Assembly: GCF_017811755.1 (NCBI RefSeq)
Contig: NZ_JADDJF010000002.1
Location: forward strand, 124,001 to 188,000
Source: Pararhodobacter sp. SW119
Lineage (GTDB): Bacteria; Pseudomonadota; Alphaproteobacteria; Rhodobacterales; Rhodobacteraceae
Reading direction: 5' to 3'
Length of the DNA: 64,000 nt
The position numbers and the translations under genes were made by a program. Below the pieces are notes generated by a model that made no database searches, had not been told where the DNA came from, and saw only the letters and a list, made by a program, of their open reading frames with translations. How positions within the stretch are numbered: position 1 is the stretch's first letter; each line of letters begins with the position of its first letter. Shown here piece after piece: positions 2,428-58,549 of the stretch.

Positions 2428-2503
2428 GTGCACGCGTGCACGTCCAAGCAAGCTACTGGAATCCTTGCGGGTCTCGCCGCCGTTAACCGCAATGAAACTT
2501 TCG
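2428..2503 (-). repeat. Intergenic box-palindrome element, copy A
   Basis: Copy of a five-member family. On the minus strand the box (2501 down to 2478) matches AAAGTTTCATTGCGGTTAAC followed by GGCG, then comes a perfect palindrome GTGCACGCGTGCAC at 2428-2441. The palindrome centre lies 43.5 nt past the end of the 24-nt box, as in copies B, C and D. It sits between convergent gene ends (amidase at 2403, carboxypeptidase at 2516). Function unknown. Confidence 0.8.
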
Positions 2504-2515
2504 GCCCCGGCCCCG

Positions 2516-4039
2516 TCAGGCCGTGCCCAGTTCCGGCGCGTGGCGGCGGGTCAGGTGTGCCAGATAGGGCATGGGGTCGAGGGGGCGGCCGGTCAGGCGC
2601 TGCAGGAGTGCGTCGCGCGAGAGCGACCGGCCGTGCCGCCAGATCCCGTCCGCGAGCGCGCTGCGCAGTCCCTCCAGCCGGCCGGCGGCGAGGTCTTCCG
2701 ACAACGTCGGGATGCTTTCCCGCAGATGCGCCATAATCTGCGCAGCCATGACATTGCCGATCGTGTAGGTGGCGAAGGATCCGATATAGCCCGAGGACCA
2801 GTGCACGTCCTGCAGGCAGCCGCGCGCGTCGTCGGGCACGGTGACGCCAAGGTCGCGCGCCATCGCGGCGGCCCAGGCCTGCGGCACGTCGGCGGGTTTC
2901 AGGCTGCCGTCCATCAGCGCCATCTCGATCTCGACCCGCAGCATGATGTGCAGATCGTAGGAGACCTCGTCCGCCTCGACCCGGATCAGGCCGGGCGTGG
3001 TGCGGTTGACGGCGGCGGCGAATTCGCCCGCGGTGACGTCGGACAGCTGGTCGGGGAAATGCGCGGCCAGACGGTCGAAATGCAGCGCCCAGAAGGCCGG
3101 GTCGCGCGCCACATGCATCTCGATCAGGCGCGACTGGCTTTCGTGCGCGCCAAAGCTGGTGCCGCCGACGGCATAGAGCGAGATCAGGTCGGTGGCATGC
3201 GCGGTGCGGGTGAAGTCGGGCGCGACGTTCTGCTCGTAGAGCGCGTGGCCGACCTCGTGCGCGGTGCCGAAGATCGAGGCGGCGATGTAATCGGGGGTGA
3301 AGCGCGTGGTGATCCGCACGTCCTGCCGGGTGAAGCTGACCTCGAACGGGTGCACGGCGGTATCGAGCCGGCCGCGGGCGAAGTCATAGCCCAGATGCGT
3401 GGCGAGTTCGTGGGCGAAGGCGCGCTGGCCGGCCTCGGGGTAGGTGCGGAAGAGGAAATCGTGGCGGGGCTGCGGGCGGGCGCGCGCGGCCTCGAGGATC
3501 GGGCGCAGCCCGGCGCGGAGTCGGCCGAAGAGCGACTGGAGGGAGGCGGCGGTTTCGCCGGGCTCGAACCCCGCCAGCATCGGGTCGTAGGGGTGGCCTG
3601 TGAAGCCGAGGCAGTCGGCCTGTTCGCGGGCCAGCGCCACGGTGCGTTCCAGCCAGGGCAGGAAGATCGAGAAATCCGAGCGCGCGCGCGCCTCGGCCCA
3701 GGCGGCCTGCGAAACAGGGGCGGTTTCGGCCTGCGCCTGCAGAAGGCGCGCGGGCAGGCGCGTGTGATGCTCGATGGCGGCGGCGACGGCCAAAGCCTCG
3801 GCCCGGTCGGGGTTTTCGGCGGGCTGGCCGTCGGTGCGGGCCAGTGCCGCGTCGCAGACGCGGCGCATGTCGGGCGACAGGATCAATTCGCGCGCCTGGC
3901 CCTTGAGCGTGGCGATCTGCTGGCCGCGGGTCGCCGCGCCTGCTGGCGGCATCTGCGTGCGCGCGTCCCAGGTCAGCAGGTTCGCGGCGCAGAGAAAGTC
4001 GTTCACCCGGGCGGTGAGTTCGGTGAGGGTCTGGGTCAT
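2516..4039 (-). CDS. Carboxypeptidase M32 (thermostable carboxypeptidase Taq family)
   Basis: 507-aa cytosolic zinc metallocarboxypeptidase, full length for family M32. The zinc motif HEVGH is at residues 261-265, and the family signature HESQS begins at His299, with Glu300 expected to complete the site. M32 enzymes remove C-terminal residues from peptides with broad specificity. It is the last gene of a minus-strand operon; its ATG overlaps the stop of the upstream oligopeptide ATPase by 4 bp. This strongly suggests that imported peptides are its substrates. Confidence 0.95.
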   Translation of the reverse strand: MTQTLTELTARVNDFLCAANLLTWDARTQMPPAGAATRGQQIATLKGQARELILSPDMRRVCDAALARTDGQPAENPDRAEALAVAAAIEHHTRLPARLLQAQAETAPVSQAAWAEARARSDFSIFLPWLERTVALAREQADCLGFTGHPYDPMLAGFEPGETAASLQSLFGRLRAGLRPILEAARARPQPRHDFLFRTYPEAGQRAFAHELATHLGYDFARGRLDTAVHPFEVSFTRQDVRITTRFTPDYIAASIFGTAHEVGHALYEQNVAPDFTRTAHATDLISLYAVGGTSFGAHESQSRLIEMHVARDPAFWALHFDRLAAHFPDQLSDVTAGEFAAAVNRTTPGLIRVEADEVSYDLHIMLRVEIEMALMDGSLKPADVPQAWAAAMARDLGVTVPDDARGCLQDVHWSSGYIGSFATYTIGNVMAAQIMAHLRESIPTLSEDLAAGRLEGLRSALADGIWRHGRSLSRDALLQRLTGRPLDPMPYLAHLTRRHAPELGTA

Positions 4040-5046
4040 GCTGCGAGTTCCACCCCGCCGGTGTTGAGATGGCAGGCGACGCCGTGGCCGGGCGCGGCGG
4101 GCGAGAGGGCCGGCACCTCGACCCGGCAGCGGGGGCCGGCATGGGGGCAGCGGGGATGAAAGGCGCAGCCGGGGGGCGGGTTCAGTGGCGAGGGGATCTC
4201 GCCCTTGATCGGGTGGAACTCCCGCCTTCCGGTGCCGAGGACCGGGATCGATTCGAAGAGAGCGCGCGTGTAGGGATGCTGCGGGTCGTTGTAGATGCGC
4301 TCGGCCGGGGCGAGTTCGACAACGCGGCCCAGATACATGATCGCGACGCGGTCGGACACATGCCGCACCACGCCGAGGTCGTGCGAGATGAAGAGCGCGG
4401 TCAGCCCCAGTTCGCGGCGCAGTTCCAGAAAGAGGTTCAGCACCTGCGCCTGGATTGAGACGTCGAGCGAGGCCACGGCCTCGTCCAGGACCAAGAGGTC
4501 GGGGTTCATGGCGAGCGCGCGGGCGATGGCGATGCGCTGGCGCTGGCCGCCCGAAAACTGGTGCGGCAGGCGCCCGGCATAGGACGGCTCCAGCCCGACC
4601 CGGCCAAGAAGGTCGCGCACCATCGTGTCGACCTGCGCGCGCGGCACGACGCGGTGGTGATGCGGCCCCTCGCTGATGGTCTGGCCGACCTTGATGCGGG
4701 GGTTGAGGCTGGCGAAGGGGTCCTGGTGGATCATCTGGACCTGCGTCGTCAGCTTTTCGGCCGCACCCCCGCGGTCGCGGGCCACGGGCTTGCCGTCCAG
4801 CGTGATGCTGCCCGCCGAGGGCATGTAGATGCCCGAAACGATGCGGCCCAGCGTGGACTTGCCGCAGCCGGATTCGCCGACAATGCCCAGCACCTCGCCC
4901 CGCGCGACCTCGAGCGTGACATCGGTCAGGGCGTGGACGGTCTGCGTGGCGTCGGGGCCGCCGACGGCGTGCAGCATCCGCTCGGCCAGATTGGGGTGGC
5001 GGGTGAAGCGCTTGGAAACGCCGGTGATCTGCAGAAGCGCGCTCAT
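4036..5046 (-). CDS. dppF: Oligopeptide ABC transporter ATP-binding protein (DppF/OppF type)
   Basis: 336-aa ATPase that powers peptide import from the cytosolic side. Walker A is GESGCGKST at 57-65, the signature SGGQRQR starts at 165 and Walker B LLVLDE is at 184-189. The C-terminal oligopeptide extension includes the Cys-rich segment CAFHPRCPHAGPRC. It is coupled by 4-bp overlaps to both the upstream DppD-type ATPase and the downstream carboxypeptidase. Gene symbol is by family; actual substrate (dipeptide, oligopeptide, glutathione) is not determined by sequence. Confidence 0.93.
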   Translation of the reverse strand: MSALLQITGVSKRFTRHPNLAERMLHAVGGPDATQTVHALTDVTLEVARGEVLGIVGESGCGKSTLGRIVSGIYMPSAGSITLDGKPVARDRGGAAEKLTTQVQMIHQDPFASLNPRIKVGQTISEGPHHHRVVPRAQVDTMVRDLLGRVGLEPSYAGRLPHQFSGGQRQRIAIARALAMNPDLLVLDEAVASLDVSIQAQVLNLFLELRRELGLTALFISHDLGVVRHVSDRVAIMYLGRVVELAPAERIYNDPQHPYTRALFESIPVLGTGRREFHPIKGEIPSPLNPPPGCAFHPRCPHAGPRCRVEVPALSPAAPGHGVACHLNTGGVELAA

Positions 5047-57682: not shown

Positions 57683-57830
57683 CGGGTCTGGTCCTTCACG
57701 ACTTTCGCGCGGGGAGTGTTCGGTTTTTCCGCAAAGGTCAAGGGTCTGGGTTTGCGCGACCACGCGGCATTGTCACTTGCAACTTGGCACCGGCGCAGGG
57801 CAGATGGGGCCAGACAGATCAGGAGAGCCG

Positions 57831-58439
57831 ATGCAACCGCCCCCGACCGCGCCCGACCCGCGCCTGCGTCAGATCCTGGAATTCGGCCCGCTGCTGGTGT
57901 TCCTGGCCGCCTATTTCTGGTTTCGGGACACGGTGGTCACGCTGGGCGGGGTGGACTACGCGGGCTTCATCATCGCCATCGTGATCTTCACGCCGCTGCA
58001 ACTGGCGGCGACGCTGATCATGCGGCGCCTGACCGGCAAGCTGTCGCGCATGCAGGTGGCGACGCTGGTGCTGGTCGTGGTTCTGGGCGGCATCACCGTG
58101 GCGCTGAACGACGAGCGCTTCTTCAAGATGAAGAGCACCTTCGTCTTCGGCATCTTCAGCCTGCTGCTGTGGATCGGGCTGGCGCGGGGCCGGTCCTATT
58201 TCGCCTACGTTCTGGAAGGCGCGCTGCCGATCAGCCACGACGGTTGGATGATCCTGACCCGGCGCCTGGCCTGGTTCTTCGCCGCCGTGGCTGTCGCGAA
58301 CGAGGTGATCTGGCGCAATTTCTCGACCGATGTCTATGTGCTTTGGGATACGCTGGGGCAGATGGGGGTGATGTTCGGCTTCTTCATTTCCAACTACCGC
58401 CTGATCGAAACGCACTGGCAGGAACCGGACGAGACCTGA
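57831..58439 (+). CDS. Inner-membrane septation protein A family (YciB/IspZ)
   Basis: 202-aa inner-membrane protein with about six helices. Conserved YciB features are LEFGPLLVFLAAYF at the N-terminus, TLIMRRLTGKLSRMQ in the middle and ALNDERFFKMKSTFVFGIFSLLLW; the C-terminal half has AVANEVIWRNFSTDVYVLWDT. The family supports cell-envelope integrity and division. AGGAGA lies 6 nt before the ATG. Typical ftsY neighbour. Confidence 0.92.
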   Translation: MQPPPTAPDPRLRQILEFGPLLVFLAAYFWFRDTVVTLGGVDYAGFIIAIVIFTPLQLAATLIMRRLTGKLSRMQVATLVLVVVLGGITVALNDERFFKMKSTFVFGIFSLLLWIGLARGRSYFAYVLEGALPISHDGWMILTRRLAWFFAAVAVANEVIWRNFSTDVYVLWDTLGQMGVMFGFFISNYRLIETHWQEPDET

Positions 58440-58471
58440 GGCTTTTTCGCGCGCTTGGCACCTCGATGGGG

Positions 58472-58549
58472 GGCGTCCAAATTTGGACGCCGAAGCAAGT
58501 CATTGATATCGCGATGAAAGAGAAAATTTCTTAACCGAATTTTCATCCC
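58472..58549 (-). repeat. Intergenic box-palindrome element, copy E (degenerate box)
   Basis: On the minus strand a reduced box (TTCGGTTAA region, about 58549-58526) is followed by the perfect 20-bp palindrome GGCGTCCAAATTTGGACGCC at 58472-58491. The centre is 44.5 nt from the aligned box end, one nucleotide more than in the other copies. Lies between convergent septation protein (ends 58439) and GST (ends 58696) genes. Confidence 0.65.

Follow-up and report, generated by a model that had tools for sequence, protein, structure and literature searches.

A box, an IHF-type site and a palindrome at gene 3' ends in Pararhodobacter: a possible directional transcription boundary

Introduction

What holds a conserved box and a palindrome of changing letters at a fixed distance from each other, repeatedly, in the gaps between genes? 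The question is raised by five intergenic copies in the window, that is, the whole stretch of 64,000 nt of Pararhodobacter sp. SW119 DNA analysed here. A preliminary description had proposed a 3'-end processing or termination signal, a structural RNA or a REP-like mobile repeat. The element is about 75 bp long and present in well over 100 copies, its parts following in the order box, IHF-type site, palindrome. It is tentatively read here, with somewhat less than even confidence, as a host-maintained nucleoprotein site, likely a directional transcription boundary at 3' ends.

Copies in the Window

All five copies were recovered where they had been described. The box AAGTTTCATTNCGGTTAAC matches four of the five without mismatch, and 100 shuffles of the window gave no box match at up to 3 mismatches. 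The fifth carries a variant box, GGGATGAAAATTCGGTTAAG, read by eye on the minus strand; it was recovered by the box-free model R2 (E 6e-9), whose training set of 83 rows includes copies 1, 2, 4 and 5, copy 3 alone lying outside. The IHF-like sites were placed by the R2 alignment.

Copy 1 palindrome GTGCACGCGTGCAC: 2428..2441, minus strand
Copy 1 IHF-like site, weak, TTCCAGTAGCTTG: 2449..2461, minus strand (R2 alignment columns 15-27)
Copy 1 box: 2482..2500, minus strand, 0 mismatches
Copy 2 box: 14212..14230, plus strand, 0 mismatches
Copy 2 IHF-like site: 14251..14263, plus strand
Copy 2 palindrome GTGCTCAAATTTGAGCAC: 14269..14286, plus strand
Copy 3 box: 22630..22648, plus strand, 0 mismatches
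Copy 3 IHF-like site: 22669..22681, plus strand
Copy 3 palindrome GTGCGCAAATTTGCGCAC: 22687..22704, plus strand
Copy 4 box AAGTTTCATTTCGGTTAAC: 55778..55796, plus strand, 0 mismatches when the pattern has N at the differing base
Copy 4 IHF-like site: 55817..55829, plus strand
Copy 4 palindrome GGTCCGCATGCGGACC: 55836..55851, plus strand
Copy 5 palindrome GGCGTCCAAATTTGGACGCC: 58472..58491, minus strand
Copy 5 IHF-like site TATCAATGACTTG: 58496..58508, minus strand
Copy 5 variant box GGGATGAAAATTCGGTTAAG: 58530..58549, minus strand, by eye; similar variant boxes occur among other copies

Copy Number and Geometry

In the genome containing the window (G000), the box has 113 matches at up to 3 mismatches and the reversed control has none. 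A covariance-model search of this genome, proposed as a check in the preliminary description, gave 147 matches, with many copies sharing the geometry. Neither of the outcomes named there as fatal, a lack of further copies or a random placement, was found. The set of 200 extracted copies leaves out L005 (at a contig end) and L229:767-852 (weak); G000 contributes 131, from loci covering most, not all, of the 147 matches, and the copies from two related genomes, G008 and G014, are their top-scoring matches. In 176 of these 200, the centre of the best palindrome lies 47 or 48 nt beyond the 20-nt box, in agreement with the 43.5 or 44.5 nt reported earlier from the end of a 24-nt box. Three copies failed the register anchor, leaving a set of 197.

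The IHF-Type Site

Between box and palindrome the preliminary description had seen only a weak block. The block is indeed present, and it is the strongest clue rather than a weak one. WATCAANNNNTTR is the consensus for IHF, whose binding sites have an AT tract about 10-12 nt upstream, and the mid-element block matches both consensus and tract. Among 230 combinations of offset and strand, the highest score falls at precisely -27 relative to the palindrome centre, with a mean of 7.61 of 9 consensus positions matched versus 2.54 averaged over all combinations, and 177/197 copies score at least 7 there. A scan independent of the box, over 400 kb of G000, found 22 cases in which an IHF-type site and a palindrome lie at distance 27, and no more than 3 at any other distance; 400 kb of the sibling genome G002 gave no peak at distance 27 (0 and 1 cases in two pieces).

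As judged from these matches, IHF probably binds the middle of the element. Part of the signal could mean something else, because the box, read on its opposite strand, gives the second-best match (6.28 of 9 on average; at least 8 in 27/196 copies). The box-palindrome spacing would be fixed because an IHF-type site, expected to act at the DNA level, lies between the two, and the whole anatomy points to DNA rather than RNA.

A Palindrome Kept Without Its Letters

With the register set independently of pairing, pairs 2-7 are perfect in 172/197 copies. In alignment A3, on which R2 was built, each row was picked or detected through perfect pairing, so a test made on it is not independent, and the scores that models R1 and R2 give the carriers themselves follow in part from how the models were built. 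The palindromes do not differ fully in sequence, as had been proposed, since position -7 is G-C in 193/197 copies and position -4 is C-G in 191/197. Selection on symmetry, the other part of that proposal, is supported, including at orthologous sites across species.

One way to account for the varied letters would be a half-site code, in which paralogous dimeric proteins each read their own half-site with IHF and box as co-sites, other genera using one half-site per genome. Relatives in other genera fit this picture: in G159, where 7 of at least 15 copies were read, every one of the 7 carries TGTGCACATGTGCACA together with GTGCAC upstream, and in G106, with 13 of at least 15 read, the half-sites are GTCCAC throughout (with an upstream GTCCAC in 7/13). 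Within the window's clade, however, the outer letters (-6,-5) vary independently of the inner ones (-3,-2) when the CA and TT classes are left out (chi-square p 0.28; 0.007 with the CA class included), and a pairing rule therefore suits the data better than separate proteins; the code is considered quite improbable. Separately, box type was seen to be tied to centre type (Fisher p 0.004) in an exploratory comparison whose classes were chosen after looking.

RNA and Terminator Readings

The eight 18-mers folded as RNA reach -8.6 to -11.6 kcal/mol, and such stable hairpins, placed at 3' ends, are what would be expected of a plain RNA element, namely a 3'-UTR hairpin terminating transcription or protecting mRNA, the box also acting as RNA. 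This reading is nevertheless considered improbable. A T-tract (at least 4 T in 6) follows the hairpin in only 30/197 copies in the gene direction and 3/197 in the other, so the hairpin-then-U-tract layout of an intrinsic terminator is not that of most of the 197 copies. The 21 imperfect copies hold 22 mismatches (4 of the 197 copies being grossly out of register), of which 6 could wobble if the gene-side strand is read, 2 if the box strand is, and 14 in neither case, with no preference for G-U. Watson-Crick pairing is kept in 191/197 copies at pair 2, where only 2 nt are enclosed, and an IHF consensus is meaningless in RNA. A comparison with Rfam, also suggested earlier, gave no match at gathering score within the window; below that score, copy 2 has four weak matches to unrelated families (E 0.11-0.53). 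The few T-tracts, the lack of wobble bias and the Rfam result leave the original "RNA hairpin or structural RNA" the less well supported of the earlier suggestions. A bidirectional RNA hairpin is likewise unsupported, imperfect copies being alike in convergent (11/125) and tandem (5/51) positions.

Intrinsic-terminator-like hairpins are found at 7/94 convergent ends in G000 versus 13/54 in G002 (shuffled, 1 and 2), and equally often at non-convergent ends (8/113 and 8/121, respectively). Within G000 they occur at 1/28 ends having the element and 6/66 without it, with no clear tie. Among the 21 listed facing 3' ends of G002 homologues of element neighbours in G000 (best matches above 55% identity), only a minority has a terminator that is evident by eye. 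That intrinsic terminators were replaced wholesale is thus only partly supported.

Placement and Polarity at Gene Ends

With genes called by a custom codon-usage caller, elements were found over 400 kb in 14/40 convergent, 3/90 tandem and 0/58 divergent gaps (convergent versus the rest, p 2e-8), which bears out the enrichment at convergent 3' ends anticipated earlier. The statement that all copies lie between convergent genes holds for the five window copies, not for the family: 170 single copies comprise 104 convergent, 51 tandem, 5 divergent and 10 without one gene call. The element is also polar. Among the convergent singles, 88 lie less than 400 nt from both genes, and in 74 of these the palindrome side is the nearer to its stop codon, the median distances to the two stop codons being 33 and 81 nt; tandem singles are palindrome-first in only 31 cases versus box-first in 20. 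Doublets, 15 of 185 clusters, are all head-to-head with the boxes inside (15/15), so that each facing gene meets a palindrome-first unit; the probability computed for this takes four arrangements as equally likely. Singles are mostly not broken doublets: a relic partner scored above threshold upstream of 5/167, all in inverted orientation, and downstream of 0/166 (far controls, 2/156).

Conservation Among Genomes

The box-bearing form was found in 3/18 genus genomes, G000, G008 and G014, the last two being incomplete assemblies (82%, 92%). An exact-pattern search of a genome collection, which may omit the genome itself and near kin, returned 7 stretches, all from one MAG, Rhodobacteraceae isolate CSSed165cm_500 (the same as G014). 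An exact pattern had no match in viral contigs, and a phage origin was set aside. Across the three species, individual sites have kept the element, though the letters of the palindrome have often changed. In 17 same-orientation orthologous pairs (one, L170, out of register, and another, L199, resting on 60% identity), the box is 89% identical and the next ten bases 58%, the half-site being identical in 5. The gene end with copy 4 carries elements in G008 and G014 too. All three carriers have the element where their ATP sulfurylase/APS kinase gene ends (3' side); the siblings G001 and G002 have there, by eye, an ordinary hairpin and a T-rich tail. The box-free model also found looser relatives in other genera. 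At the family level, its matches L326, L328, L332 and L337, each from a different genus, precede a gene of 438-454 aa by 137-184 nt and look rather like promoter-type sites of another kind.

Known Composites and Rival Explanations

No named family fits the whole element, as the preliminary description had said, although the IHF-containing REP composites of enterobacteria, BIME-1 (also called RIB), are a clear analogue. Since these composites were discovered, no function is known to have been agreed on for them. BIME-1, two REPs around an IHF-interacting stretch, is the closest known system: both are dispersed intergenic composites of palindrome and IHF site, with inverted units, and the predicted IHF site of the element lies within its composite at a fixed offset. 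In the element, however, there is a single palindrome per unit and the 20-bp box stands in place of the second REP. Its palindrome varies under strict symmetry and has no GTRG head (GTAG or GTGG lies 5' of it in 2/197 copies on the box strand and 17/197 on the other), no RAYT common to all carriers was found, and copies are conserved at orthologous sites. The CGTC-tagged REPs of Alphaproteobacteria are similarly palindromic, form head-to-head dimers, prefer 3' ends and are described without a dedicated transposase, but with an unpaired CGTC head, stems of 8-9 bp and loops of 4-5 bp (PMC3733652); such a head occurs in 1/197 and 3/197 copies on the two strands. The Correia elements (NEMIS) of Neisseria are described as repeats containing a site to which IHF binds in vitro (PMC2229807); they differ in anatomy, being MITEs with terminal inverted repeats and species of 107 and 155 bp. 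CRISPR leader-repeat junctions and phage attP sites also combine an upstream motif, an IHF bend and a palindromic core at fixed spacing, whereas the element is scattered over gene ends in more than 100 copies.

The likeness to REPs invites the reading as a REP- or MITE-like selfish repeat, spread by a transposase and tolerated at gene ends, with an incidental IHF site and no host function. High copy number, the lineage-restricted box-bearing form, the head-to-head doublets and one copy 3' of a peptidase gene 39-43% identical to its genus homologues are all consistent with it. So is the 3'-end preference, which REP-type repeats share according to PMC3733652, so that placement alone is no proof of function. 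Recent copying is, however, contradicted by the lack of near-identical spacers (mean pairwise identity 0.45, maximum 0.83), and a box kept site by site while the spacer diverges is unlike a decaying repeat. Looked for in the genus, the RAYT domain Y1_Tnp (PF01797) has 3 partial matches in G000, none in the incomplete G008 and G014 assemblies and one weak match in G006, which lacks the box; RAYT mobilisation was rejected, the domain not being common to the carriers. A selfish repeat is on balance unlikely, and a chromosome-architecture site slightly more so. The latter would be a supercoil sink, an IHF-organised loop or a place of gyrase or SMC loading where the positive supercoils of convergent genes meet. 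Enrichment in convergent gaps speaks for it, as does the interaction of BIME-1 with IHF and of BIME-2 with gyrase described in PMC2817692; the polarity toward one stop codon would not be required. The same source describes REPs as aiding Rho-dependent termination. The earlier suggestions of a REP-like repeat and of a 3'-end signal both come near the transcription boundary favoured here.

Proposed Mechanism and Significance

In such a boundary, the 20-bp box would presumably be bound by a putative protein, and IHF on the middle site would fold the DNA back, bringing the box beside the 14-16 bp dyad (core GYNCRMN|NKYGNRC), which could be read by its symmetry. Its position close behind stop codons, mostly with the palindrome leading, would make the boundary directional: the 3' hairpin of the transcript would emerge, the polymerase would then run into the complex of IHF and box, and transcription reading on into the facing gene could be stopped or attenuated.

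The element resembles the enterobacterial IHF-REP composites and has a fixed third part, stop-codon polarity and site-by-site conservation, which makes host function versus selfish repeat directly testable. The element is a natural case of DNA symmetry kept without sequence. More speculatively, and rather doubtfully, it may belong to a genome-wide boundary code, in which IHF would fold the site and a box-bound factor would check that the half-sites match each other, whatever their letters; lineages would drift under this self-match rule, and in this clade the sites would partly replace ordinary terminators.

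Anatomy of the Element

The preliminary description reported five copies in the window, and its coordinates are right for all of them; four carry the box without a mismatch, where none would be expected by chance. Copy 5 has a variant box and was recovered with R2, a box-free covariance model whose training set (83 sequences) already included window copies 1, 2, 4 and 5. The following genes of the window were noted.

Left neighbour of copy 5: IspA domain (taken from the window ORF list)
2516–4039: M32 carboxypeptidase gene, carrying an element at its own 3′ end
29310–32276 and 43937–46711: two large molybdopterin oxidoreductases

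The M32 carboxypeptidase shows 39–43% identity to homologues found in 14 other genomes of the genus, and likewise only 39–43% to a second copy in its own genome (G000:C112:10038–11414). The window gene was probably acquired separately.

In a set of 200 copies from the three box-bearing species (131 from the window's own genome, G000, 50 from G014 and 19 from G008), the element reads from 5′ to 3′ as the box AAAGTTTCATTGCGGTTAAC, an AT-rich stretch, WATCAANNNNTTR, a six-base linker and the palindrome. The distance from box to palindrome centre is 47 nt in 149 of the 200 copies and 48 nt in 27. With the register set by the CA-N5-TTG block and the box distance, and not by pairing itself, palindrome pairs 2 to 7 are perfect in 172/197 copies, one or two mismatches being present in 21 and four being out of register. 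Counted from the palindrome centre, G–C occupies −7 in 193/197 copies and C–G occupies −4 in 191/197. Among the 172 copies selected for pairing, position 5 uses all four Watson–Crick pairs (CG 66, GC 59, TA 33, AT 14) and is paired in 100%, where base composition alone would give 31%; pairing drops close to background by pairs 10–12. The covariation score of a 29-copy alignment is 0.559; shuffling gives 0.191, and slid controls never exceed 0.091.

The middle block is, as judged from its sequence, an IHF-type site. The IHF consensus was scanned across 115 offsets on both strands, and its best placement is at −27 on the box strand, with a mean of 7.61 of 9 positions versus 2.54 over all places; the runner-up is the box on the opposite strand (mean 6.28 of 9). 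The predicted site at −27 is perfect in 34 copies and matches at least seven positions in 177/197. In the AT tract, columns −39 to −37 consist of A or T in 86–96% and lie 10–12 nt upstream of the consensus, the position of the A-tract contact made by IHF in the lambda H′ site. A box-independent scan, using only the IHF-type site and the palindrome, gave 22 cases at distance 27 in 400 kb of G000 and at most three at each other distance; two pieces of the genus sibling G002 gave 0 and 1 cases at distance 27. A slightly looser scan of the same 400 kb of G000 yielded 26 copies, 18 known and eight new; in most of the new ones the box is a variant, for example GGTTAACAAAAA or GGTTAAGAAAA.

Copy Number and Placement

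In the 4.5 Mb draft genome G000, the box has 113 matches with at most three mismatches, versus none for the reversed control. Of the initial 30 loci, one is cut by a contig end; a covariance model based on the other 29 gave 147 matches at E ≤ 0.01 among 150 candidates scored. At the same threshold, with 150 candidates scored per genome, R2 matched 149 times in G000, 146 in G014 and 82 in G008. A 400-kb contig stretch of G000 holds 25 full-length copies with R2 at E ≤ 0.001, plus a weaker one, and the total extrapolated from it may be roughly 280; 400 kb of G002 scanned with R2 held none. Several draft contigs of G000 (C2, C24, C122, C164, C170) start or stop inside or near an element.

Placement was assessed with gene calls from our own codon-usage caller, as distinct from curated annotation. 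Over 400 kb of contig 1, among gaps of at least 70 bp, box-model elements occupy 14/40 convergent, 3/90 tandem and 0/58 divergent gaps (convergent versus all others, p = 2e-8). Of the 170 single copies, 104 lie in convergent gaps, 51 in tandem gaps (31 of them palindrome-first and 20 box-first) and five in divergent gaps; in the other 10, one side lacks a gene call. In convergent singles with both gene distances below 400 nt, the palindrome side is the closer to its stop codon in 74 of 88 (medians 33 and 81 nt). All 15 doublets, made of two adjoining units, are head-to-head with the boxes inside, so that the facing genes each meet a palindrome, then an IHF site, then a box.

DNA or RNA Level

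Of the 22 mismatches in the 21 imperfect copies, 14 are unpairable in the RNA of either strand, and wobble is possible for six on the gene-side strand and two on the box strand. A T-tract follows the hairpin in 30/197 copies in the gene direction and in 3/197 in the other. Eight palindromes were folded, and the hairpin is stable on paper both as RNA and as DNA. On these grounds we favour a site that would act at the DNA level; an RNA hairpin may contribute to stopping polymerase.

Comparison with Known Repeats

BIME-1 is described as an IHF-interacting stretch flanked by two opposed REPs, and REPs as facilitating Rho-dependent termination (PMC2817692); in Alphaproteobacteria, CGTC REPs occur as head-to-head dimers with a preference for 3′ ends and no dedicated transposase (PMC3733652); and a REP is defined by a GTRG head plus a palindrome (PMC3686654). 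The element works like such a composite, yet passes neither the test for a REP head nor that for a RAYT, and is for these reasons not classed as a REP. A literature search covering mainly open-access titles and abstract openings found no description of it. Partial Y1_Tnp (PF01797) matches occur in G000 at C35:63425–63682 (L303, L305) and C143:10–93 (L306).

Looser Relatives in the Family

R2 matches at E ≤ 0.001 were found in 23 of 394 family genomes, own genome counted, where the nominal E-value would predict about 0.4. Foremost are G106 and G159, from other genera, with at least 15 each (15 candidates scored), then G284 with six. Among genus non-carriers, at E ≤ 0.01, G003 has three and the others 0 or 1. 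The seven G159 copies read share one common palindrome and a third half-site upstream.

L321, L342, L360–L364 (G159): palindrome–IHF plus an extra upstream GTGCAC, identical to the palindrome half-site

The 13 G106 copies read have GTCCAC half-sites, seven with a further GTCCAC upstream, and six sit box-first between co-directional genes; a stricter scan of 400 kb of G106 gave one copy at distance 27, not above other distances. These matches are looser relatives, which may not share the function of the element. Loci L326, L328, L332 and L337, from four genera, have an IHF-like site and a GCCCAANNNTTGGGC-type palindrome 137–184 nt upstream of a gene of 438–454 aa, an arrangement that looks like a conserved promoter architecture.

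Evolution in the Carrier Clade

The box-bearing form is present in 3/18 genus genomes; in 393 other genomes sampled from the family, the box pattern, where present, is seen at only one or two sites in a genome, as is the reversed control. When flanking genes were matched by reciprocal best hits, 23 orthologous element pairs emerged, 17 in the same orientation and six in opposite ones, with doublets involved in three of the six. In the 17, identity is 89% in the box and 58% in the next ten bases, and the six-base half-site is unchanged in only five.

At the 3′ end of the ATP sulfurylase/APS kinase gene, inspected by eye, all three carriers have the element, with half-sites GTCCGC in G000 and G008 and GTCCAA in G014. 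The palindrome centres of G000 and G008 differ despite the shared half-site, and the spacers are no longer alignable among carriers. Siblings G001 and G002 have a hairpin with T-rich tails there, and G004 and G011 other sequence. Intrinsic-terminator-like hairpins are found at 7/94 convergent 3′ ends in G000 versus 13/54 in G002 (shuffled, 1 and 2), with no difference at non-convergent ends (8/113 and 8/121). Within G000, element and terminator-like hairpin are not clearly exclusive (1/28 versus 6/66 ends). These comparisons suggest that selection keeps the copies at their sites even as the letters of the palindrome change.
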